DNA of 64,000 bases from Leptospiraceae bacterium (GTDB lineage Bacteria > Spirochaetota > Leptospiria > Leptospirales > Leptospiraceae): assembly GCA_017996175.1 (NCBI GenBank), contig JAGOHK010000004.1, forward strand, positions 1 to 64,000, read 5' to 3'. The translations under genes were made by a program, and so were the position numbers. The notes under the pieces are model-generated. The model was given only the letters and a program-made list of their open reading frames with translations, had not been told where the DNA came from and did no database searches. Below are positions 2,344-13,900 of the stretch, piece after piece. Position 1 is the stretch's first letter. Each line of letters starts with the position of its first letter.

Positions 2344-3810
2344 ATGCTCACTGGTGAAATTAAATCACAGATTGATAAAGTTTGGGAAGCGTTTTGGACG
2401 GGCGGTTTGTCTAATCCTCTGACTGTGATTGAGCAGATGACTTATCTTTTGTTTTTGCGTAGGCTTGATGAATTACAAACTCTGAAAGAGAAAAAAGCGG
2501 CTACTCTTAAAAAGCCGATAGAAGAGCCGATTTACAAAACCTCCGAAACCAATTTGCGTTGGAGTCATTTTAAAAATACAGATCCCGAAGTCATGTTCGA
2601 GTTGTTTCGAAAGAAAGATGGAATTTTTGATTTTCTAAAAAATGTAGGGAGTAAAGATTCTACTTTTTCCAAGTTCATGAAAGGCGCTACGTTTATGATT
2701 CCGACTCCGAGGCTTCTTGCTCAAGTTGTAGAAATGCTTTCCAATCTAGACATGAGCGACAGGGACACAAAAGGGGATGTTTACGAGTATCTCCTTGGAA
2801 AAATTGCGTCAGCCGGAAGAAACGGTCAGTTTAGAACTCCACGGCATATCATTAGCCTGATGGTGGAATTAGTCAAACCTACAATCGAGGACATCATCTG
2901 TGATCCTGCTTCTGGAACGTCTGGCTTTCTAGTGGCTAGTAGTGAGTATGTGCGAAGGAATTTTGAAAACGATTTGTATGACAAAAAACACAAATTGCAT
3001 TTCCAAGAGAAGATGTTTATGGGTATGGAATTTGACCCTACGATGATTCGTATCGGTGCTATGAACCTAATCTTGCACGGTATCGAAAATCCTCATCTCA
3101 TCGACGTGGACGCACTCAGTGAGGCTAATGCCAATTTTACCGAAGACGCAACTCTCATTCTTGCAAATCCTCCTTTCAAAGGAAGTCTCGACCGTGGTGC
3201 TGTGGACAAAAAAGTTTTAAAGATTGTAGACAGCACTAAGACTGAGCTTTTATTCATTGCCCTAATTCTGCGTGGTTTGAAGTTAGGCGGTAGAGCCGCT
3301 GTGATTGTGCCCGATGGTGTATTGTTCGGTAGTAGCAACGCCCATTTACAAATCCGAAAAGAATTAATCGACAATCAAAAACTCCAAGCCGTAATCAGTA
3401 TGCCAAGCGGTGTATTCAAACCCTACGCCGGCGTGAGCACTGCCATTATCCTCTTCACCAAAACCAATAGCGGAGGAACCGACCACGTTTGGTTCTACGA
3501 TATGTAGTCTGACGGTTTCAGCCTAGACGACAAACGCCAACCTCTCGACACAAGCGACATCCCCGATATTCAAAAACGTTTCCAACATCTAAAAGCCGAA
3601 TCCAAACGGTCTAGGACAGACCAAAGTTTCCTTGTTCCAAAATCCGAAATTGTCTCAAACAAATACGACCTTAGCATCAACCGCTACAAAGAAATCGAAC
3701 ACGAGGAAAAATCTTATTCGTCGCCGTCCCACTTAATCGAACAAATCGAATCCATCGACAAAGAACGATTAGCCTTGCTGAAACAATTGAAAGGGTTGTT
3801 GAAGAAATGA
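2344..3810 (+). pseudogene. hsdM: Type I restriction-modification methyltransferase subunit, interrupted by an amber codon
   Basis: This would be the N6-adenine methyltransferase (M) subunit of a type I restriction-modification system. The N-terminal HsdM domain covers about residues 1-130. The AdoMet motif DPASGTSGF lies near residue 187 and the catalytic NPPF motif near residue 274. An AAGGA ribosome site precedes the ATG. An in-frame TAG at 3505-3507 sits inside the conserved VWFYDM-x-SDGFSLDD block. The frame then stays open for about 100 more codons to a TGA at 3808-3810, giving 488 residues in all, the normal length for HsdM. A single CAG or GAG to TAG change would explain it. Unless the stop is suppressed, the C-terminal region that contacts HsdS is lost and the system may be inactive. 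Confidence 0.9.
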
Positions 3811-3853
3811 AGATTTTACCACGGATGAACACAGATAGACACGGATGTTTTGG
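3811..3853 (+). repeat. Dispersed ACCACGGATG-word repeat
   Basis: Immediately after the hsdM stop there is a run of ACGGATG/ACACAGAT words (ttaccacggatgaacacaga and on). The same words recur near 4988, 6246, 7293 and 25310, and in reverse orientation in every copy of the hsdS-tail array. The repeat marks junctions where accessory genes join the restriction locus. No coding capacity is evident. Confidence 0.6.
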
Positions 3854-3883
3854 ATTCATGCTTATTAGCCAAACGATGGTTCT

Positions 3884-3944
3884 GTCATTCCCATGCGAAG
3901 GAGCTGGGCGCATAGCGCAGAGTGGAATTTTAATCGGGAATCTC
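3884..3944 (+). repeat. GTCATTCCC/GGGAATCTC dispersed palindromic repeat (short copy)
   Basis: The segment starts with GTCATTCCC and ends with CGGGAATCTC, around a GC-richer core that includes GGGCGCATAGCGCAG. The same boundary words mark the palindromic elements at 53908-53977 and 57300-57422, so this looks like a shorter member of that family. It lies in the gap between hsdM and the nucleotidyltransferase gene. Confidence 0.5.
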
Positions 3945-4711: not shown

Positions 4712-4984
4712 ATGTTAGAATATTCTTATATTAAAAAAGCAAGATACTTAAAAAATTATAGAATATATTGTATATTCGAAGATTTAAGTTCTGGCGTTCT
4801 CGACCTGTCAAGTTATCTAAATCGTGGGGGGGTATTTTCCTATTTAGAAAATGAGAGCAATGCTAAACGTTTTAAAATTGTGGATGGTATCATCACATGG
4901 GATGAGGGGCAAATTGATATTGCACCTGAAACAGTTTATCATTTGGTAACAAAAAAATCTCTACCGGCATGGGTTGAAAAATAA
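4712..4984 (+). CDS. DUF2442 family protein
   Basis: This 90-residue protein is of the DUF2442 type. The segment ILDLSSYLNRGGVF-like (here VLDLSSYLNRGGVF), then ITWDEGQIDIAPETVYH, matches the family's typical core, in which a short beta-rich domain ends in WxxGxDIAPExLY. DUF2442 genes usually follow a DUF4160 gene in a putative toxin-antitoxin arrangement. Here the DUF4160 partner is deleted while this gene remains intact, so it may be an orphan. The biochemical function of the family is not established to my knowledge. Confidence 0.85.
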   Translation: MLEYSYIKKARYLKNYRIYCIFEDLSSGVLDLSSYLNRGGVFSYLENESNAKRFKIVDGIITWDEGQIDIAPETVYHLVTKKSLPAWVEK

Positions 4985-4987
4985 ATT

Positions 4988-5205
4988 GTTACCACCGATG
5001 CACACCGAGAACACCGATTGGCACCGATGTTTGGCGATCAAGATTTGCCACAGAGACACAGAGGCACGGAGAGTTGGAATTATAAATACTGTTATGGTGT
5101 GATTCGATACATTATGTTGCGACCTTAGGAAGCAACATTGAGTTCTCGCTCGGATGCTGCTGCTTGGTTGGTGAGCTTGCCGAATCCACACCACGGCGCA
5201 CAAAT
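4988..5205 (+). repeat. ~210-bp direct repeat, left copy (A)
   Basis: This segment begins taccaccgatgcacaccgag and ends around gaatccaca. It is closely similar along its length to 7293-7493. The shared blocks include the CACAGAG words, GGAATTATAAA, TTCGATACATTATGT and GCGACCTTAGGAAGCAACAT. The two copies face the same way and bracket the two DUF3800 genes and their RNA elements. No gene is supported inside it. Confidence 0.85.
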
Positions 5206-5260
5206 GCAAACGTATTAGGATTGGTGGTTAATGCTTCTTATGCTAAAGGAAGGATTTTTC

Positions 5261-6079
5261 TTGGATCAAAGTAAATTACATTCCGATCACCGCTTTTTAG
5301 ATGAAGCAGGAGATACTTCTTTTTTTGGAAAAGGAAAGATTCCTATTATTGGTAAAGAGGGAGTTTCTCTTTCTTTTATTTTAGGAATGGTTCGATTTAA
5401 CTCAGAATTGGAACCTATTCGCAAGCAAATTAATTTATTGCAAAAGACTATTGAAGAAGATTCTTATTTTCAAGTTTCTAGCATAAAAAAAAGAATCGCG
5501 AAAGGTGGGTTTTATTTTCATGCCACGGATGATATTCCGGAAGTGAGAAAAGTATTTTTTGATTTTATAAAATCTATAGATTGTAGTTTTGAAGCTATAG
5601 TAGCTCGAAAAGATTTATCTATTTTTGCGAGAAAGCACAATACGAAGGAAGAAGAATTTTATGCGGACTTATTATCTCATTTATTGAAAAATAAACTTGA
5701 GTTAAGTGGCAAATTGGTTTTAAACATTGCACAGAGAGGGAAGTCCACTAAGAACAATAATTTGGAGCTTGCTCTAAAAAAGGCGGAATCTCGATTTCTA
5801 AAGAATGCTGGTCATTCGGAAAAATTCGTTTCGACTAAGGTTGTATTTAATGTTCAGAACCAGATGAAAGAGCCGCTTTTGAATATAGCAGACTATTTTT
5901 GTTGGGCAGTGCAAAGAGTTTTCGAAAAGGGAGAGACTCGGTATTATGACTATTTGATTGATAAAATATCTCTTGTCATAGACCTATATGATTCAAAGAA
6001 ATATAAAGGAAATGGGAACTATTATACAAAGGAAAACCCATTGGGGGCTGATAATAAAATAAGCCCGCTTTTATACTAA
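5261..6079 (+). CDS. DUF3800 family protein, copy 1
   Basis: This is a DUF3800 protein, a family thought to have an RNase H-like fold. The conserved N-terminal acid motif reads FLDEAGD. Further shared blocks are FYFHATDD, FARKHNTKEEEFYADLLSHL, NIADYFCWAVQR and the C-terminal TRYYDY and LVIDLYD. A strong AAGGAAGG lies 7 bases before a TTG at 5261. That start gives 272 residues, exactly the length of the paralogue at 6285, so I prefer it over the ATG at 5231, which lies in the repeat junction. The last six codons overlap the 5' strand of a structured RNA element. The function of the family is unproven; nuclease activity is suggested by the acidic residues. Confidence 0.85.
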   Translation: MDQSKLHSDHRFLDEAGDTSFFGKGKIPIIGKEGVSLSFILGMVRFNSELEPIRKQINLLQKTIEEDSYFQVSSIKKRIAKGGFYFHATDDIPEVRKVFFDFIKSIDCSFEAIVARKDLSIFARKHNTKEEEFYADLLSHLLKNKLELSGKLVLNIAQRGKSTKNNNLELALKKAESRFLKNAGHSEKFVSTKVVFNVQNQMKEPLLNIADYFCWAVQRVFEKGETRYYDYLIDKISLVIDLYDSKKYKGNGNYYTKENPLGADNKISPLLY

Positions 6080-6129
6080 GAGGGATACCCCTCCACGACA
6101 TGGAGTCGGAGTTCATATAAAGCAGGCTT
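6061..6129 (+). ncRNA. DUF3800-associated structured RNA element, copy 1
   Basis: The strands AAGCCCGCTTTTATA (6061-6075) and TATAAAGCAGGCTT (6116-6129) pair to close a junction. Inside it, GAGGG-ATAC-CCCTC forms a 5-bp hairpin with an ATAC loop, and a second weaker hairpin is possible around CTCCACGACATGGAG. The copy after the second DUF3800 gene keeps the same shape and the same ATAC loop with different stem sequences, so the stems co-vary. Conserved RNAs named DUF3800 motifs are known next to DUF3800 genes; I infer membership but cannot assign the subtype. Confidence 0.7.
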
Positions 6130-6284
6130 GGTTACAATATCGAATGGATTAAAGGGAAAGTCAATAGAAAAATAGGTAAATAACTAGAGAGAAAATGAAA
6201 AACGAAACTAGCGTCAATAAAGCTTTACTTGATTCGAGATTTAAGATTTTACCACGGATGAACACGGATGTTTGGGATTAAACA

Positions 6285-7103
6285 ATGGAAATAGATAAAG
6301 CAAATCATCATAAACCCAAAAAATATCTATTTATTGATGAAAGTGGAGATGCTGCTTTCTATGTTAATAATAAAAAACTTTTGATTGGTCAAGAAGGGTT
6401 TAAGCCTGTTTTGCTCATGGGTATGATTGAAATAGAGAACAAAGAAGAAACTTACAATTTTATAAATGATTTTCAAAACAATATTAAATCCGATCCTTTA
6501 TATAATTCCTTAAAATGTGTTACAGACCCAAAGGGTTGGTATCTACATGCGAAGAACGATCAACTCGAAATTAGAACAAAATTTATTGAAGCATTAAGAA
6601 GACAGGAAGGAATTAAAACATATATTGTCATTGGAAGAAAGAGACTTCGCACATTTCAATCCAAGCATAATTCTAAAGAAAGTGAATTTTATTTTGATAT
6701 GATTTATCATCTGCTCAAGGATAGACTAAATGATGAAAATGTATTTTACCAGATTCTACTTGCGGGACGAAAGGGAAACGATGCGCTGAAATTAAAACGC
6801 TCTATCGAAAAGGCATTAGAAAGAGATAATTCAAAACGAAAAACTAAATTGGATATTAAATTTGATTGTAGAACTACTCCAAGTTCGACAACTCCAGAGC
6901 TTAGTATAATTGATTATATGCTTTGGTCACTGCAACGATATATTCTCAGTGAGGATAATCGATATTACTTTGCATTAAAAGAAAAATACAATTTGATTAT
7001 AGATTTATATGATTTTCCTAATTTTAAAAGCAATTATTATAACAAAAGTAACCGATTTGAAAAAGAAAAAGCAAGTGAGTTTAGAATAGATGGATATGTG
7101 TAG
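6285..7103 (+). CDS. DUF3800 family protein, copy 2
   Basis: This second DUF3800 protein of 272 residues is a diverged paralogue of the one at 5261. The same signature blocks appear in the same order: YLFIDESGDAAF, WYLHAKND, FQSKHNSKESEFYFDMIYHL, IIDYMLWSLQR, NRYYF and LIIDLYDF. The aspartates of DESGD and of IIDLYD are conserved between the two copies and are candidate metal ligands. The gene is preceded by a short ACCACGGATG-word repeat (6246-6274). It is followed within 10 bases by the second copy of the structured RNA. The two gene-RNA units are in tandem, as expected for a duplicated or serially acquired module. Confidence 0.88.
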   Translation: MEIDKANHHKPKKYLFIDESGDAAFYVNNKKLLIGQEGFKPVLLMGMIEIENKEETYNFINDFQNNIKSDPLYNSLKCVTDPKGWYLHAKNDQLEIRTKFIEALRRQEGIKTYIVIGRKRLRTFQSKHNSKESEFYFDMIYHLLKDRLNDENVFYQILLAGRKGNDALKLKRSIEKALERDNSKRKTKLDIKFDCRTTPSSTTPELSIIDYMLWSLQRYILSEDNRYYFALKEKYNLIIDLYDFPNFKSNYYNKSNRFEKEKASEFRIDGYV

Positions 7104-7112
7104 AAATAAAAA

Positions 7113-7185
7113 GAGCAATCTTTTGTATCCCGTGCCAATACTGGCAACCCCTACAGGTGCAGGTTATGGATTACAAAAATTGCTC
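7113..7185 (+). ncRNA. DUF3800-associated structured RNA element, copy 2
   Basis: GAGCAATCTTTTGTA (7113-7127) pairs with TACAAAAATTGCTC (7172-7185). The internal hairpin TGCCA-ATAC-TGGCA is perfect and has the same ATAC loop as copy 1, although all five base pairs differ in sequence. A second internal segment, AACCCC...AGGTT, can also pair. The element starts 9 bases after the DUF3800 stop codon. A 62-codon open frame across this region (7090-7278) follows the RNA stems and is not treated as a gene. Confidence 0.7.
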
Positions 7186-7292
7186 AATTGGAATCTATTC
7201 TTATTTTCGGAAAAAAGCAAGCTATTTTTGGGTAAAAAATGGAGAAATAGGAAATATTTTAATGGTGATACACTATGAAATGGGACTTTAAA

Positions 7293-7493
7293 AGATTACC
7301 ACCGATGCACACCGAGAACACCGATTGGCACCGATGTTTAGGGATTAAGATTTGCCACAGAGGCACAGAGACACGGAGTTTTGGAATTATAAACACTGTC
7401 ATGGTGTGGTTCGATACATTATGTAGCGACCTTAGGAAGCAACATTGAGTTCGGCTCGGAAGCGGCTACTCACCAACCAAGCTCTGTCGAATC
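7293..7493 (+). repeat. ~210-bp direct repeat, right copy (B), inserted at the hsdS leader
   Basis: This is the second copy of the repeat at 4988-5205. It is flanked by two copies of the hsdS leader and first codons: TTAATGGTGATACACTATGA at 7259-7278, and TTAATGGTGGTTATTCTATG at 7505-7524, both continuing as AAATGGGA. The hsdS start region thus appears to be duplicated, with the repeat between the two versions. This is a footprint of insertion or recombination. Confidence 0.8.
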
Positions 7494-7521
7494 CATGCTT
7501 GGGGTTAATGGTGGTTATTCT

Positions 7522-8700
7522 ATGAAATGGGAAATGGTGAAGTTGGGGGATTTATGCACGATAGTGAGAGGTAGCTCGCCACGACCTAAAGGTGATTCTC
7601 GATACTACGGCGGAAAAATTCCTCGGTTAATGATAGAAGATATAACAAGAGATGGAATGTATGTTACTCCGAGAGTAGACTCCTTAACTGAGGAGGGTGC
7701 AAAGCTAAGCCGCCCAATGAAAAAGGGTGATATGGTAATTACAGTTAGCGGCAGAACAGGAGTGCCCGCCATATTGAATGTTGATGCTTGTATTCATGAC
7801 GGTTTTGTTGGATTTAGAAATTTATCTAATACTATTGATAAAATTTTTCTTTATCATTATTTAGAGAGTTTAACAGAAATTACAAGCCAACAAGCAGTAG
7901 GCGCAATTTTTAAAAATCTAACAACAGAACAACTTAGCAATCTCCGAATCCCTCTTCCTCCTCTCTCTGTGCAGAAAGAGATTGCGGAGATACTGGATAC
8001 TGCCGATGCACTGCGCAAGAAAGACAACGAGCTTCTCAAAAAATACGACGAACTAGCCCAGTCCATCTTCATAGAAATGTTCGGCGACCCAGTGAGAAAT
8101 GAGAAAGGATGGGAAGTGAAGACTATTGAAAGTGTTATCAATAAAGAACGCCCAATCACATACGGAATACTGATGCCGGGTCCAAATATAAAACCAAATG
8201 GAGTTCCATATATTCGAGTAGTTGATATTAAAAATAATATGATTTTAGAGGATCAAGTTTATTATACGACAAAAGATATTGCTGCGGCTTACAAGCGTTC
8301 TACTCTCAAAGAAAATGATATTTTATATTCTATTCGAGGTCATGTAGGACGTTCATGCATTGTCAAGCCTTCGATGGCTGGTGCAAATATTACACAAGAT
8401 ACTGCACGCCTAGACTTCAATGATGAGATTATTAATGAGTATGCACTTGAGTATATGAAATCTGATTCATTTTCGAGAATAGTTAAACCATTAGTTCGAG
8501 GAGCAGCAGTAAAAGGTTTAAATTTAGGAGATTTAAAAAAGTTACCTATCCCAATTCCTGATTTGAAATTACAAAAAAAATTTAGAGATAAAATTGCTTT
8601 AGTTAATGAACAGAAATCAGCATTATCAATGTTAACCGGTTGCTCCAACAACCTATTCCACTCGCTACTACAAAAAGCATTCAAAGGTGAGTTGACGTAA
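7522..8700 (+). CDS. hsdS: Type I restriction-modification specificity subunit
   Basis: This is the DNA-recognition subunit of the type I system, about 392 residues. It has two target-recognition domains, each ending in a conserved helical spacer. The first spacer, PLPPLSVQKEIAEILDTADA, lies near residues 145-165. The second is the shorter PIPDLKLQKKFRDKIALVNE near the C-terminus. The protein ends HSLLQKAFKGELT, the usual HsdS tail. I start it at the ATG at 7522 (MKWEMVKLGDL); the in-frame ATG at 7495 lies in repeat DNA. Its last ~55 bases are reiterated downstream. It lies 3.7 kb from hsdM and 2.2 kb from hsdR, with accessory modules between them. Confidence 0.92.
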   Translation: MKWEMVKLGDLCTIVRGSSPRPKGDSRYYGGKIPRLMIEDITRDGMYVTPRVDSLTEEGAKLSRPMKKGDMVITVSGRTGVPAILNVDACIHDGFVGFRNLSNTIDKIFLYHYLESLTEITSQQAVGAIFKNLTTEQLSNLRIPLPPLSVQKEIAEILDTADALRKKDNELLKKYDELAQSIFIEMFGDPVRNEKGWEVKTIESVINKERPITYGILMPGPNIKPNGVPYIRVVDIKNNMILEDQVYYTTKDIAAAYKRSTLKENDILYSIRGHVGRSCIVKPSMAGANITQDTARLDFNDEIINEYALEYMKSDSFSRIVKPLVRGAAVKGLNLGDLKKLPIPIPDLKLQKKFRDKIALVNEQKSALSMLTGCSNNLFHSLLQKAFKGELT

Positions 8701-9094
8701 ATCCCTTCGATGCATTAACAATAAAAACATCGGTGTTCATCCGTGTCCACCGGTGGTAATCTTTTATTACCCACACCAACAACCTATTTCATTCACTCCT
8801 ACAAAAAGCATTCAAAGGTGAGCTGACATAAATCCCTTCGACGCATTAACAATAAAAACATCGGTGTTCATCCGTGTTCATCCGTGGTTAATCTTCCATT
8901 ACCCACACCAACAACCTATTCCACTCGCTACTACAAAAAGCATTCAAAGGTGAGTTGACGTAAATCCCTTCGATGCATTAACAATAAAAACATCGGTGTT
9001 CATCCGTGTGCATCGGTGGTAATCTTTTATTACCCACACCAACAACCTATTCCACTCACTACTACAAAAAGCATTCAAAGGTGAGCTGACGTAA
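8646..9094 (+). repeat. hsdS-tail repeat array, copies 1-4
   Basis: Starts of the unit CAACAACCTATTCCACTCGC lie at 8646, 8777, 8909 and 9040, a period of 131-132 bp. The first copy is the true end of hsdS. Each later copy still encodes NNLFHSLLQKAFKGEL followed by a stop. A linker ATCCCTTCGA.GCATTAACAA and a reversed ACGGATG/CCGTGG-word tail follow. Copy 4 is cut after its stop at 9094. Three more copies start at 9902, 10023 and 10803. Confidence 0.95.
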
Positions 9095-9102
9095 AAAAGG
9101 TC

Positions 9103-9204
9103 TCTCACAGAGGGCACAGAGCGGTGCATTGAGTTTATCGAAATGTTCACTGAGAGTATTTTAGTATAGAGGCTTTCTCTGTGATCTCCGTGGACTCTGT
9201 GAGA
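9103..9204 (+). repeat. CACAGAG-word inverted repeat
   Basis: TCTCACAGAG at 9103-9112 is matched by CTCTGTGAGA at 9195-9204, with further CACAGAG/CTCTGTG words between. The element sits directly after the truncated fourth hsdS-tail copy and before the TA-like gene at 9289. It belongs to the CACAGAG-word repeats also found in the 210-bp repeat and near 19976. Confidence 0.65.
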
Positions 9205-9288
9205 AAAAACATCTCTTTTCATCAGTGGTAATCTTTAAAATTTTTTTTAATTGACAATTATAAAAAACAGAAATTTACTAGAAATGCT

Positions 9289-9558
9289 ATGGTGCTTGTT
9301 GACAAACAAACTCTAATTCATTGGATGCTTCTTGATTCGCTTTCAAAAGAAAGTCATTATCGAGAGAAGATTTCCATATTTAAAAACAAATACAAAACTG
9401 ATTTTCTAACATTTCAAAGCCGGGTTGAAAATGCCGAAAAAGAGTCATTCGAAGAATGGGATGATTATATTGAATGGGATGCCTATGAAGGTTTTTTAAG
9501 TCGTATAAAGGAACGAGTAAGTGACATCCGAAACGGAAATATTCAATTGGTTGGATAA
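9289..9558 (+). CDS. TumE-partner-type small protein (putative antitoxin)
   Basis: This 89-residue acidic protein has the pattern LDSLSKESHYREKISIFKNK and then WDDYIEWDAYEG. I associate that pattern with small proteins encoded directly upstream of TumE/DUF6516-type toxins. A remnant of such a toxin begins in the next frame at 9551, overlapping the end of this gene. It is placed between truncated hsdS-tail copy 4 and copy 5. The antitoxin role is inferred from the neighbour. Confidence 0.55.
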   Translation: MVLVDKQTLIHWMLLDSLSKESHYREKISIFKNKYKTDFLTFQSRVENAEKESFEEWDDYIEWDAYEGFLSRIKERVSDIRNGNIQLVG

Positions 9559-9655
9559 TAGCCAAATTGTATCTCGCTATGAAGTTCTGGATTTTCAAGA
9601 GGATAATGAAAGTTATCTACTCACCATCGTCACGAACAAAACGAAGACAATGTAA
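9551..9655 (+). pseudogene. TumE/DUF6516-like toxin, N-terminal remnant
   Basis: An open frame from the TTG at 9551 reads SQIVSRYEVLDFQEDNESYL and ends after 34 residues. The YEVLDF/ESYLL pattern is the beginning of TumE/DUF6516 proteins, which are normally about 100 residues long. The rest of the domain is missing. A 22-codon frame (9655-9723) that follows has no recognisable content. This is probably a decayed toxin beside its surviving partner. Confidence 0.5.
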
Positions 9656-9750
9656 TGGAAAATAAAGAAGTCGCTTTAATAGACATTTTGAAATTTATTC
9701 TAAATAAGTTTTTTAAGGATTAAAGAAAGAAGGATATTGAGAGGTCAATT

Positions 9751-9885
9751 ATGGAACAGATGCCAATTTGGTTTATTGTATGCGGGGTTTTTGTTTTTGT
9801 TGGAGGACTTGCGCTTATGGCTAAAGGTCTTGTAGGAATGATTGGAAGAGAAGTAAAAAAACAATTAGATACTAAGTTCAAATAA
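9751..9885 (+). CDS. Small single-pass membrane protein
   Basis: This is a 44-residue open frame with a GAGAGG ribosome site 8 bases before its ATG. The sequence is one hydrophobic helix (WFIVCGVFVFVGGLALMA) followed by a basic tail (REVKKQLDTKFK). It lies just before hsdS-tail copy 5. Small hydrophobic proteins of this type occur as type I TA toxins and as membrane modulators, but nothing here identifies which. The gene call rests on the ribosome site and the coherent composition. Confidence 0.45.
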   Translation: MEQMPIWFIVCGVFVFVGGLALMAKGLVGMIGREVKKQLDTKFK

Positions 9886-9901
9886 CAACCATTACCCACA
9901 C

Positions 9902-10140
9902 CAACAACCTATTCCACTCGCTACTACAAAAAGCATTCAAAGGTGAACTGACGTAAATCTCTTCGATGCACAGACAATAAAAACATCGGTGTCCATCGGT
10001 GGTAATCTTTTATTATCCACACCAACAACCTATTCCACTCACTACTACAAAAAGCATTCAAAGGTGAGTTGACGTAAACCCCTTCAATGCACTGATAAGA
10101 AAAACATCCGTGTGCATCTGTGTTCATCCGTGGTTAAATT
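9902..10140 (+). repeat. hsdS-tail repeat array, copies 5 and 6
   Basis: Two consecutive units start at 9902 and 10023. The first is 121 bp long, about 10 bp shorter than the upstream units because part of its ACGGATG-word tail is missing. Both keep the hsdS-tail codons and stop. The DUF433/DUF5615 pair begins about 50 bases after copy 6. Confidence 0.92.
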
Positions 10141-10156
10141 TTTTCCAAAAAATGAC

Positions 10157-10184
10157 TTGCCAATTTATTTAAACTAGTTAGTAA
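10157..10184 (+). promoter_or_regulatory. Candidate promoter of the DUF433/DUF5615 pair
   Basis: TTGCCA (10157-10162) and TAGTAA (10179-10184) are separated by 16 bases and lie 9 bases before the DUF433 ATG. The match to a sigma-70-type promoter is moderate. It would give a very short leader. It is the only promoter-like pair seen between repeat copy 6 and the gene. Confidence 0.35.
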
Positions 10185-10192
10185 TAAAAAGT

Positions 10193-10417
10193 ATGGACTA
10201 TAAAACTAGAATTACATCTGATCCGGGAATTATGCTTGGAAAGCCAATCATCAAAGGCACTCGAATTACAATAGAACTAATCTTACGTAAACTATCAGAA
10301 AAGAATTCTATCGAAAAATTATTACAATCCTATCCTCATTTAGAAGCGGCTGATATATATGCCGCTTTAAGTTATGCGGCTGACATGCTTTCTAAGGAAG
10401 AGCTCATTGCAAGTTAG
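10193..10417 (+). CDS. DUF433 family antitoxin
   Basis: This 74-residue DUF433 protein has a small winged-helix-like fold and is the usual antitoxin of DUF5615 PIN-like toxins. The family signature is present: ITSDPGIMLGKPIIKGTRIT, then IEKLLQSYPHLEAADIYAAL. The toxin gene starts at a TTG inside its last codons, so the two are translationally coupled. Together they form a complete-looking TA unit lying between copies 6 and 7 of the hsdS-tail repeat. Confidence 0.92.
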   Translation: MDYKTRITSDPGIMLGKPIIKGTRITIELILRKLSEKNSIEKLLQSYPHLEAADIYAALSYAADMLSKEELIAS

Positions 10418-10778
10418 AATTATCGCAGACGAAAATATCGATGCCTATATTATTGAGTCATTGCGAAATGAGAATTATGAAGTATTATCCATTCGCGAAA
10501 GCTATCGTGGGATCAAAGATATTGAAATCATCGTGATGGCAAACGAAAGAGAATGTTTGATTCTAACGGAAGACAAAGATTTTGGAGAATGGATTTTTTC
10601 TCATAAATCAGAATCAGCAGGAGTTATTTTCCTTAGATACGAAGATAAAGACATGGAAGAAATAATTTTTGCCGTCAAAAAAATTCTTTCTGAATACGGA
10701 GAAAATCTTTACGGAAAATTTAGCGTCGTAACAAAACGCAAAATTCGAATCCGAGATATAATAGATAAGATATTTTAA
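10407..10778 (+). CDS. DUF5615 PIN-like toxin
   Basis: This is the PIN-like nuclease partner of the DUF433 protein, 123 residues from the TTG at 10407. The N-terminal RIIADENID carries the first acidic pair, and LILTEDKDFGEW carries the second, a typical arrangement for metal-binding DUF5615 domains. The 11-base overlap with the antitoxin gene supports the TTG over the upstream ATG at 10374. It is predicted to cut RNA when unopposed; the target is unknown. It ends 24 bases before hsdS-tail repeat copy 7. Confidence 0.9.
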   Translation: MQVRIIADENIDAYIIESLRNENYEVLSIRESYRGIKDIEIIVMANERECLILTEDKDFGEWIFSHKSESAGVIFLRYEDKDMEEIIFAVKKILSEYGENLYGKFSVVTKRKIRIRDIIDKIF

Positions 10779-10802
10779 TAAACTAACAACCATTACCCAC
10801 AC

Positions 10803-10918
10803 CAACAACCTATTCCACTCGCTCCTACAAAAAGCATTCAAAGGTGAACTGACATAAACCCCTTCGACGCACAGACAATAAAAACATCCGTGTCCATCTG
10901 TGTTCATCCGTGGTAAAC
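10803..10918 (+). repeat. hsdS-tail repeat array, copy 7
   Basis: This last copy of the hsdS-tail unit ends in reversed ACGGATG words (CATCCGTGTCCATCTGTGTT) and lies 35 bases before the hsdR start. It still carries the AAAAAGCATTCAAAGGTGAA codons and a stop. Confidence 0.92.
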
Positions 10919-10952
10919 TTCCGCTCTTTCCAATCAGATAAAGAGTAAAGAG

Positions 10953-13900
10953 ATGAGTAATTTTACTTTCCTAAAACCAAATTGGACAGCACTTTCAGAA
11001 GATCCTATTGAAGCAGAAAAAAATATTTTTCGTGCGCCGATGTATACGGCTATGCTTTGCAGGAAGAACCTAGAAGATTGGGTAAGATTTATTTTTGAGC
11101 ATGATGCTGATTTGGAACTTCCTTATGATGACTCTCTTAGTTCCCTATTACATGATGAAAAATTTAAAACGTTAGTCGGGAGAGATAGATTTACTCAATT
11201 AAATCTTATTCGCAAATTAGGAAACACCGCCGTTCATACGAAGGCAAAGATCCAGACAAATGAGGCACTGTATGTAGTAAAACTCCTACATGGATTTACT
11301 GCCTGGGTAGTTCGGGTCTATAGCCAAAAGAAGCCAGAAATTCCAGCGTTTGAAGAGTCGTTAATTCCAAGAGAAACAGGAAAGGATAAAACAAAAGAAG
11401 AACTAAAAAATCTTGAACTAAAATTTCACGAGCAACAGAGTGAATTAAAAAAAGTTAAGGAAGAATTAGAAAAATACAAAGCGGCTAAGGAAAGTTATCT
11501 ACCACTCTCCGAGCCAGTCGTAAAAGATATAACAGAAGCTGAAACTAGAAAGATTTACATTGATACACTTCTCCGAGAAGCAGGTTGGGAACCATACGAG
11601 AAAAATGTTCGAGAATATCCGATTAAAAATTGTATTCCGCAGGCAGACAAATCGCTTGGCGACGGTTTTGCTGACTACGTTCTCTGGGGGGATAATGGCA
11701 AACCGCTAGCTGTCGTGGAAGCCAAACGAACTAAAAAAGACAAAGACACAGGAAGAGAACAAGCTAGACTCTACGCAAATGGATTAGAAAGAGATTTTGG
11801 ACAACGCCCGATAGTATTTTATTCAAACGGCTATGAGACCGGTATATGGGATGACACGCATTATCCGCCACGTAATGTATTTGGATTTTACACGAAAGAT
11901 GAGCTAGAGTTACTCATCCAGAGAAGAACTTCTAAAAAGTCACTTGCTAGTGAAACAATCAACTTAGCAATCACCGAAAGACCATACCAACAAGAAGCAA
12001 TCCGTCGAGTATCCGAAGCATTAGAACGAAAACAAAGAGATGCACTCCTCATCATGGCAACTGGAACAGGCAAAACAAGAGTTGCCGCTTCTATCGTTGA
12101 TTTTTTGAGCAAAGCTAATTGGGCAAAAAGAGTTTTATTTCTTGCGGATAGAATTCCACTCGTCGAGCAAGCAAAGAAAAGTTTTAATGATTGTCTACCG
12201 AATTTGCCAGGAGTAAATTTGGTTGAAGAAAAAGAAGATGATAGTAGTCGAATTGTATTTTCCACCTATCAAACCTTAATCAATCTAATTGATGGTGAAA
12301 CCGATGGAGACAATCGTTTGTATGGTGTAGGTCATTTTGATGTAATTATATTCGATGAGATTCATCGCTCCGTTTACAATCGTTATAAAGCTATTTTTAA
12401 ATATTTTGATGGAATTAGAATTGGACTCACCGCAACCCCTAAAACGGAAACAAGTAAGGATACGTATGAACTGTTTGGAATGGAAGCGAATAATCCAACG
12501 TTTGCGTATGAATTAGACGAGGCGGTGCGAGATGGTTTCTTGGTTCCACCTGTTGCGATATCCGTGCCTACAAAGTTTCATCGAGAAGGAATTAAATACT
12601 CCGAGTTAAGCGAAGAGGAAAAAGCTGAATACGAAGAAAAATTTTCTGATCCAATCACAGAGGAATTGGTAAAACAAGAAATAGAATCAGATGCACTCAA
12701 TGATTGGTTGTTTAATGCAAATACAGTAGACCAAATTCTATCTCATATTATGCAAAATGGAATCAAAGTAGAAGGTGGAGATAAACTTGCAAAGACAATG
12801 ATATTTGCTCGTTCCCACAGTCATGCTAAGTTTATTGAAGATAGATTCAACAAGCAATTCAAACAATACAGAGGAGAATTCTTACGAGTAATCGACTACC
12901 AAGAAGAACAAAGAAAATCTTTACTAGAATCTTTTAAGGATAACGAACGTTTTCCGCAAATTGCAGTTTCGGTAGATATGCTAGATACCGGAATAGATGT
13001 CCCAGAAGTTTCTAACTTAGTTTTCTACAAACCAGTAAAGAGTCTTACAAAATTCTGGCAGATGGTCGGACGCGGGACGAGACTTTGTAAAAACCTACTT
13101 GGTATCGGGCAACACAAAAAAGAATTTCTCATCTTTGACTTTTGCGAGAACTTTGAGTTTTTTGCCGTTAACCCCAAAGGCATTAAGACCAATATGATAA
13201 AGTCATTAAGCCAACGACTTTTTGAATTAAGATTGAGGCTTGCCGTTATTCTCTCCAAAGAAGAAAGTCCTGAATTAAAAAAATATTCAGAACAAATCTT
13301 AACCCGACTTGTAGAACAAACACAATCACTCGATTTACAGAGTTTTATAGTTAGGCAAAATCTACAAGTTGTAGAAAAGTATAGAGATATACAAGCATGG
13401 AATGACTTGAGCGACTTAGACATAAAAGAAATCTTCGATAATATCGCGCCTATCGTTCCAGAAAAAGATACAGATGAAAAAACAAAACGATTTGATACGA
13501 TTCTATTTGATCTACAGATACGAACACAGATTGGTGGAAAATCCATTGATGACTTAGTAAAAAGAGTCAAGTCTGTAGCAGGTCAATTAAGCAAAAAAGG
13601 AAACCTCCCAAAAGTTGCCGAGAAAATGGATATTATCCGCGAAATCCAAGAAGATAGTTTTTGGAAAACTGCGGAAATTCCTTCTCTAGAAAAAATACGA
13701 ATTGAACTTAGGGATTTAGCCAAGTTCCTAGATACCGAGTCTACTCCTATCATTTATACTAATTTTGAAGATGAAATAGGATATGGGACGATAAATGATT
13801 TATCCTTTAATTTGAATGATCTAGATACCTACAAACGAAAAGTAGAAAGGTACCTCAAAGAAAATAATAATCATACAACTATTTATAAAATCAGAAATAA

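Follow-up and report, generated by a model that had tools for sequence, protein, structure and literature searches.

A class of DUF3800-linked RNAs was reportedly defined in a 2017 paper. The Rfam families DUF3800-I (RF02969), DUF3800-VIII (RF03075) and DUF3800-IX (RF02968) are structured RNAs tied to DUF3800 genes. Other systems to which the locus described here can be compared include TnpB, an RNase H-like nuclease whose gene overlaps at its 3' end with the omega-RNA; PDC-M04A, a DUF3800 defense candidate in PADLOC that represents a related DUF3800 family; and the type III toxin-antitoxin (TA) systems (ToxIN, CptIN and TenpIN), which combine a nuclease protein and a small RNA in one locus. 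The type III antitoxin RNA usually lies upstream of the toxin gene as tandem repeats (PMC5086642), and a phage-borne RNA mimic is known (PMC3475682).

The window analyzed here (64,000 nucleotides of contig JAGOHK010000004.1 from a Leptospiraceae bacterium, assembly GCA_017996175.1) contains one type A unit and one type B unit in tandem, each consisting of a DUF3800 gene and an RNA element behind it (Table 1). The two proteins share 32% identity, and both ORFs exceed Pfam's curated cut-off for DUF3800 (PF12686). A preliminary description of this DNA had placed both genes, and it had the closing stems, the P2 hairpins and the coordinates of both RNAs exactly right; the second hairpin of each element (P3) was absent from it. 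The 5' strand of the type A RNA, the only type A copy found in the genome, encodes the C-terminal residues of gene 1 (NKISPLLY).

Table 1. Features of the DUF3800 locus (positions are those of the window)
Feature	Position	Strand	Remarks
hsdM, type I restriction-modification locus	2344..3507	+	ORF and translation; in-frame TAG at 3505-3507
164-nt direct repeat around the DUF3800 pair	4982..5145	+	second copy at 7289-7452, 91%
DUF3800 gene 1	5231..6079	+	282 aa; Pfam PF12686 22.8 bits (cut-off 21); PADLOC DUF3800_VII 7.8e-16
Type A three-way-junction RNA of gene 1	6061..6129	+	spans gene 1 stop codon; covariance model R1 76.1 bits, E 4.1e-17 (not independent, as the sequence is in the R1 seed)
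Type A closing stem P1/P1b, 5' strand	6061..6076	+	pairs with 6115-6129; double changes in 12 to 13 of 15 pairs
Type A hairpin P2, GAGGG-AUAC-CCCUC	6080..6093	+	5/5 pairs covary; 95.6% of cells paired
Type A hairpin P3, CGAC-AUGGA-GUCG	6096..6108	+	4/4 pairs covary; loop consensus AUGRA
Type A closing stem, 3' strand	6115..6129	+	covariation
DUF3800 gene 2	6285..7103	+	272 aa; Pfam PF12686 22.1 bits (cut-off 21); PADLOC DUF3800_VII 4.4e-16
Type B three-way-junction RNA of gene 2	7113..7185	+	architecture common to L064, L067-L069, L077, L087 and phage contig L118
Type B closing stem P1	7113-7119 / 7179-7185	+	stem pairing
Type B hairpin P2, UGCCA-AUAC-UGGCA	7133-7146	+	stem pairing
Type B hairpin P3, CCUAC-AGGU-GCAGG	7150-7163	+	stem pairing, one A-C mismatch
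hsdS, type I restriction-modification locus of hsdM	7495..8700	+	ORF translation

The DUF3800 pair sits between hsdM and hsdS of a type I restriction-modification (RM) locus. The direct repeat around the pair, together with more intergenic repeat families at 8645-10990, suggests a cassette-like or repeat-rich island. The in-frame TAG of hsdM comes after FYDM and is followed by about 100 further hsdM-like residues in frame (window 2344-3900), so hsdM may carry a nonsense mutation, or the TAG may stem from an error in sequencing. An AAA ATPase gene (88-1176), situated upstream of this RM locus, matches PADLOC HEC-02A (a defense candidate) with 5.7e-87. At other loci, 7 of 87 neighboring proteins are HsdS (a count made without a control set), and the genomic context (type I RM, HsdS neighbors) is only loosely compatible with defense. 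Promoter and terminator scans gave nothing beyond shuffles.

Single-sequence folding of the window copies was just moderately above shuffles (z-scores of -2.89 for type A and -2.92 for type B), and a comparison with relatives was therefore needed. Scanning GTDB species genomes with a protein profile yielded 69 related loci, which cover Spirochaetota, Bacteroidota, Fibrobacterota, Bacillota, Omnitrophota, Cyanobacteriota, Chloroflexota, Acidobacteriota and others, and the carriers include the culturable strains Dyadobacter crusticola DSM 16708 and Runella defluvii DSM 17976; an RNA right after the DUF3800 gene is of type A at 62 of these loci and of type B at five. Our covariance model of type A (R1, built on 13 sequences) matches 62 of the 69 loci and the window, always on the coding strand and behind the gene, and has no further convincing match across 683 kb. 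One locus (L019) has two type A RNAs, its gene-RNA unit being duplicated. The consensus reads AAGYCC..(P1)..CUARG-P2-NCA-CGGC(AUGRA)GCCG-ACUUUCR-..GGACUU. Co-variation was tested on homologues, as had been proposed for this locus: among 63 distinct type A rows, 82.5% of cells pair (57.7% when shuffled), 22 of 24 pairs have double changes and 376 cells are double-changed (113 when shuffled), in an alignment that was fitted to R1, a bias in its favor, and with which the seed by itself agrees. Pairing falls to 31–38% when the structure is slid by 1–3 columns. This covariation in about 60 homologues argues overwhelmingly for an RNA structure of type A, and it supports a three-way junction. The preliminary description had taken co-variation between the two window copies as strong evidence; the structure itself holds, by virtue of the homologues, and the comparison of the two copies is weak evidence because they belong to different RNA types.

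Proteins whose stop codon lies inside the RNA usually have an NKISPL-like tail, and those whose stop comes before the RNA have none; the tail therefore appears to be derived from the RNA. At three loci (L021, L022 and L023) the first motif of the DUF3800_VII protein is DESGS instead of DESGD, and the RNA is still intact.

Type B is represented by just 6–7 distinct sequences, and in six divergent members the stem sequences diverge while their pairing is kept. Its conserved segments are CCCGUG before P2-P3 and then GUUAUGR or a close variant. A tree of 63 proteins groups the carriers of type B (gene 2 included) in one clade with support of 100/100, and RNA type therefore tracks protein clade; the sister of this clade is a mostly Bacteroidota type A group that contains gene 1. 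The suggestion that the RNA is the partner of the protein is thus well supported at the sequence level, by the type-clade match and by the same place of the RNA in nearly all relatives.

An Rfam scan with the DUF3800 motifs included gave no match at the elements in the window or in relatives. The RNAs are therefore not the catalogued DUF3800 motifs, and types A and B would be new families within the wider group of RNAs linked to DUF3800. Possibly they are a published but uncatalogued version, and the PADLOC label DUF3800_VII may reflect a published numbering. The link to DUF3800 RNA motifs drawn earlier is fully borne out in that a conserved structured RNA is present beside the DUF3800 gene, as in the Rfam families; it does not extend to membership of a known family. 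By eye, DUF3800-VIII shares with types A and B a closing stem with AAGCCC and a 3' junction that resembles UUAUGU, but its consensus has one internal hairpin whereas types A and B have two, and no covariance-model match was found between them. Hammerhead, twister and similar ribozymes were considered and are without Rfam support. Locus L223, whose DUF3800 gene is from another subfamily, has an inverted-repeat RNA of a different kind after the gene (hairpin UGACG-CCUGA-CGUCA), which is possibly a further RNA type.

The AlphaFold model of gene 1 (63-row alignment; mean pLDDT 89.8, pTM 0.89) resembles RNase HII/HIII, in line with the RNase-H-like protein of the preliminary description. Foldseek against the PDB placed RNase HII first (1eke, E 2.1e-5), followed by RNase HIII (4py5, with RNA/DNA; E 5.3e-4), and such matches, with TM of 0.36–0.48, were the sole significant fold matches in the PDB; a profile search against PDB sequences found nothing. 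Gene 1 is predicted to encode a metal-dependent RNase H-like nuclease, with which the invariant residues (D24, E25, G27, H97, D101 and D221) fit and for which we infer activity. An RNase H fold is also described for CRISPR-associated DUF3800 members (PMC10910872, PMC12669027).

As compared to type III TA systems, the RNA here is downstream, in a single copy per gene and with a three-way junction, and the protein, a DUF3800 whose predicted fold is RNase HII-like, is not a ToxN/CptN/TenpN endoribonuclease; membership was rejected on gene order, repeats and protein family. What stands of the earlier type III TA-like proposal is a plausible way of working, in view of the orphan and phage copies described below; the type III features of gene order, repeats and protein family are not found here. 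Membership in PDC-M04 was also rejected (gene 1 has no match and gene 2 just 7e-4, and an RNA stands in place of the partner ORF). At all 15 PDC-M04A loci that we read, no type A RNA is behind the gene, and a second coding frame (by reading) comes directly after 14 of them. Nor is type A tied to all DUF3800s, since PDC-M04A loci lack the RNA except at L222 (a DUF3800_VII remnant) or in phage contig L123.

Our main reading, to which we give a probability of roughly one half (0.48), is a two-part module of a DUF3800 nuclease and its cognate RNA, the latter most likely inhibitory, with further copies serving as antidotes or phage decoys. We infer that the RNA would be transcribed as the 3' end of the DUF3800 message, fold into the three-way junction, be released and bind the cognate protein, where it would act as antitoxin or inhibitor and most likely keep the nuclease inactive. 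Phage infection might upset the RNA-protein balance, and the module would then work as defense or addiction. Once the protein gene is lost, the RNA may persist as antidote, and phages would carry RNA copies as decoys. If the RNA is inhibitory, it may therefore outlive the protein and phages would be expected to carry it, as in the published parallel of the phage pseudo-ToxI RNA that neutralizes ToxIN (PMC3475682). Against an inhibitor is the order of toxin and then RNA, which reverses the usual TA gene order.

RNAs without the protein are common. When 396 Bacteroidota and 393 Spirochaetota genomes were scanned with R1, about half of the elements had no adjoining intact DUF3800_VII gene, and 16 orphan-carrying genomes have an intact type A RNA with no DUF3800_VII anywhere (according to a profile of the 63 proteins). 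Several orphans keep a piece of the DUF3800 C-terminus, including four loci with a truncated gene (last ~50 residues) before the RNA (L157, L159, L161 and L177); some others are isolated, intergenic or behind another gene. For 26 orphans, bacterial and viral, 80.9% of cells are paired and 159 are double-changed (49 when shuffled), figures that are biased because R1 detection favors intact elements; the orphans could be remnants that were found because R1 requires the fold.

Some orphan loci have features of their own. In L177, L159 and L161, a frameshifted PDC-M04A DUF3800 is followed by the last ~50 DUF3800_VII codons and an intact type A RNA, apparently through recombination or decay. Five related Bacteroidota orphans (L156, L162, L166, L169 and L173) have a changed P3 loop in common (CAGAG for AUGRA), a point against the main reading; the first three of them lie ~180 nt behind a MazF/PemK-like toxin gene (by reading). 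In L185, the type A RNA (1501-1576) comes directly after what reads as the C-terminal end of an hsdS; the final residues of this frame are similar to the DUF3800 tail, as after an in-frame DUF3800 deletion.

The orphans bear on a cis-acting 3' UTR element, by which the nuclease would bind or cut its own message to limit expression, or the fold would protect the message. We regard this as quite improbable: the RNA is within or adjoins the 3' terminus of the message and the final codons are often part of the RNA's 5' strand, as such a role would have it, but intact orphans are found behind other genes (L185), between genes and in phage contigs, and a purely cis role does not account for them.

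We scanned IMG/VR with exact patterns (P3-core or P2-core) and scored the matches with R1. Orphan type A RNAs were found in L126 (61 bits), L143 (57), L149 (49), L125 and L147 (35 each) and L130 (34), and with lower scores in L135/L150 (30) and in L124 (22 bits, accepted solely on partial fit); viral contig L118 has an orphan type B, by sequence and stems. Pattern-only matches of 12–17 bits were taken as chance, L128 (30 bits, without P2) was likewise set aside, and 11 viral matches with CCCGTGCCARTACTGGCA were mostly chance or coding, the one genuine type B being L118. Terminase, portal or head genes are present in L118, L124 and L126, and tRNA genes abut the RNA in L126, lie beside or near it in L143, L149 and L118, and occur at other positions within the examined part of other contigs. 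L143 has a DUF3800-VIII RNA above the cut-off ~500 nt from its type A, and in L125 a sub-threshold DUF3800-VIII RNA abuts the type A. Within the contig parts examined, the orphan-RNA viral contigs (which may be fragments) contain no DUF3800 gene; L123 has one directly 5' of its RNA. BLASTN of the elements against phage and plasmid records gave chance-level matches only, and tblastn of gene 2 against such records gave none. In L130, an int-alpA RNA (RF02996, above cut-off) at 1499-1564 is near the orphan type A element. By its replicase match, L147 is read as an ssRNA phage, and its type A-like element (1610-1681) is between the first two genes on the minus strand, opposite the genes.

These contigs could also be read as evidence for a small RNA or ribozyme that belongs to phages and mobile islands in its own right; DUF3800 would use it as substrate or cargo, and the protein would be secondary. 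Orphans about as frequent as paired copies in the Spirochaetota sample, phage orphans near tRNAs and another catalogued RNA, and the minus-strand element of the ssRNA phage contig are on its side, but nearly every gene at the protein-search loci has exactly one RNA just behind it, RNA type tracks protein clade, and the catalogued ribozyme families in Rfam gave no match, which makes this reading very improbable.

A positive role of the RNA is unlikely in our judgment, as cofactor or scaffold for target recognition or cleavage and perhaps in a guide-like RNP, with phage copies competing for the protein in the way that RNA anti-CRISPRs compete for Cas proteins. It would agree with the overlap of RNA and gene 3' end, as for TnpB, with the cognate co-evolution of RNA type and protein clade, with the viral orphans, and with the DUF3800 accessory nucleases in some CRISPR loci (PMC10910872, PMC12669027). 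However, a cofactor would serve no purpose in the bacteria whose orphan RNA has no protein, and the element has no variable unpaired segment; it differs from omega-RNA in lacking a guide-like variable part, and the best fold match of the protein is RNase HII/HIII, not RuvC. Across 15 close pairs, identity is 76–100% for the element segments and 73–96% for the coding end, the element being mostly better conserved than the coding sequence, while the 3' flank drifts. The guide role suggested in the preliminary description is thereby rejected for the element itself; a guide may lie within the drifting 3' flank.

Returning to the inhibitory module, it is possible, if doubtful, that the locus belongs to an undescribed RNA-antidote immune module, in which an RNase HII-like DUF3800 is held by its RNA, phage small-RNA islands (often near tRNAs) carry decoys, sometimes for more than one DUF3800 system, and bacteria keep the RNA alone as antidote. 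The agreement between RNA type and protein clade, the orphans without protein and the phage copies point to a trans-acting RNA, and phages may have evolved mimics of a DUF3800-linked RNA. In laboratory strains, the question comes down to a single protein, its RNA and an RNA taken from a phage.
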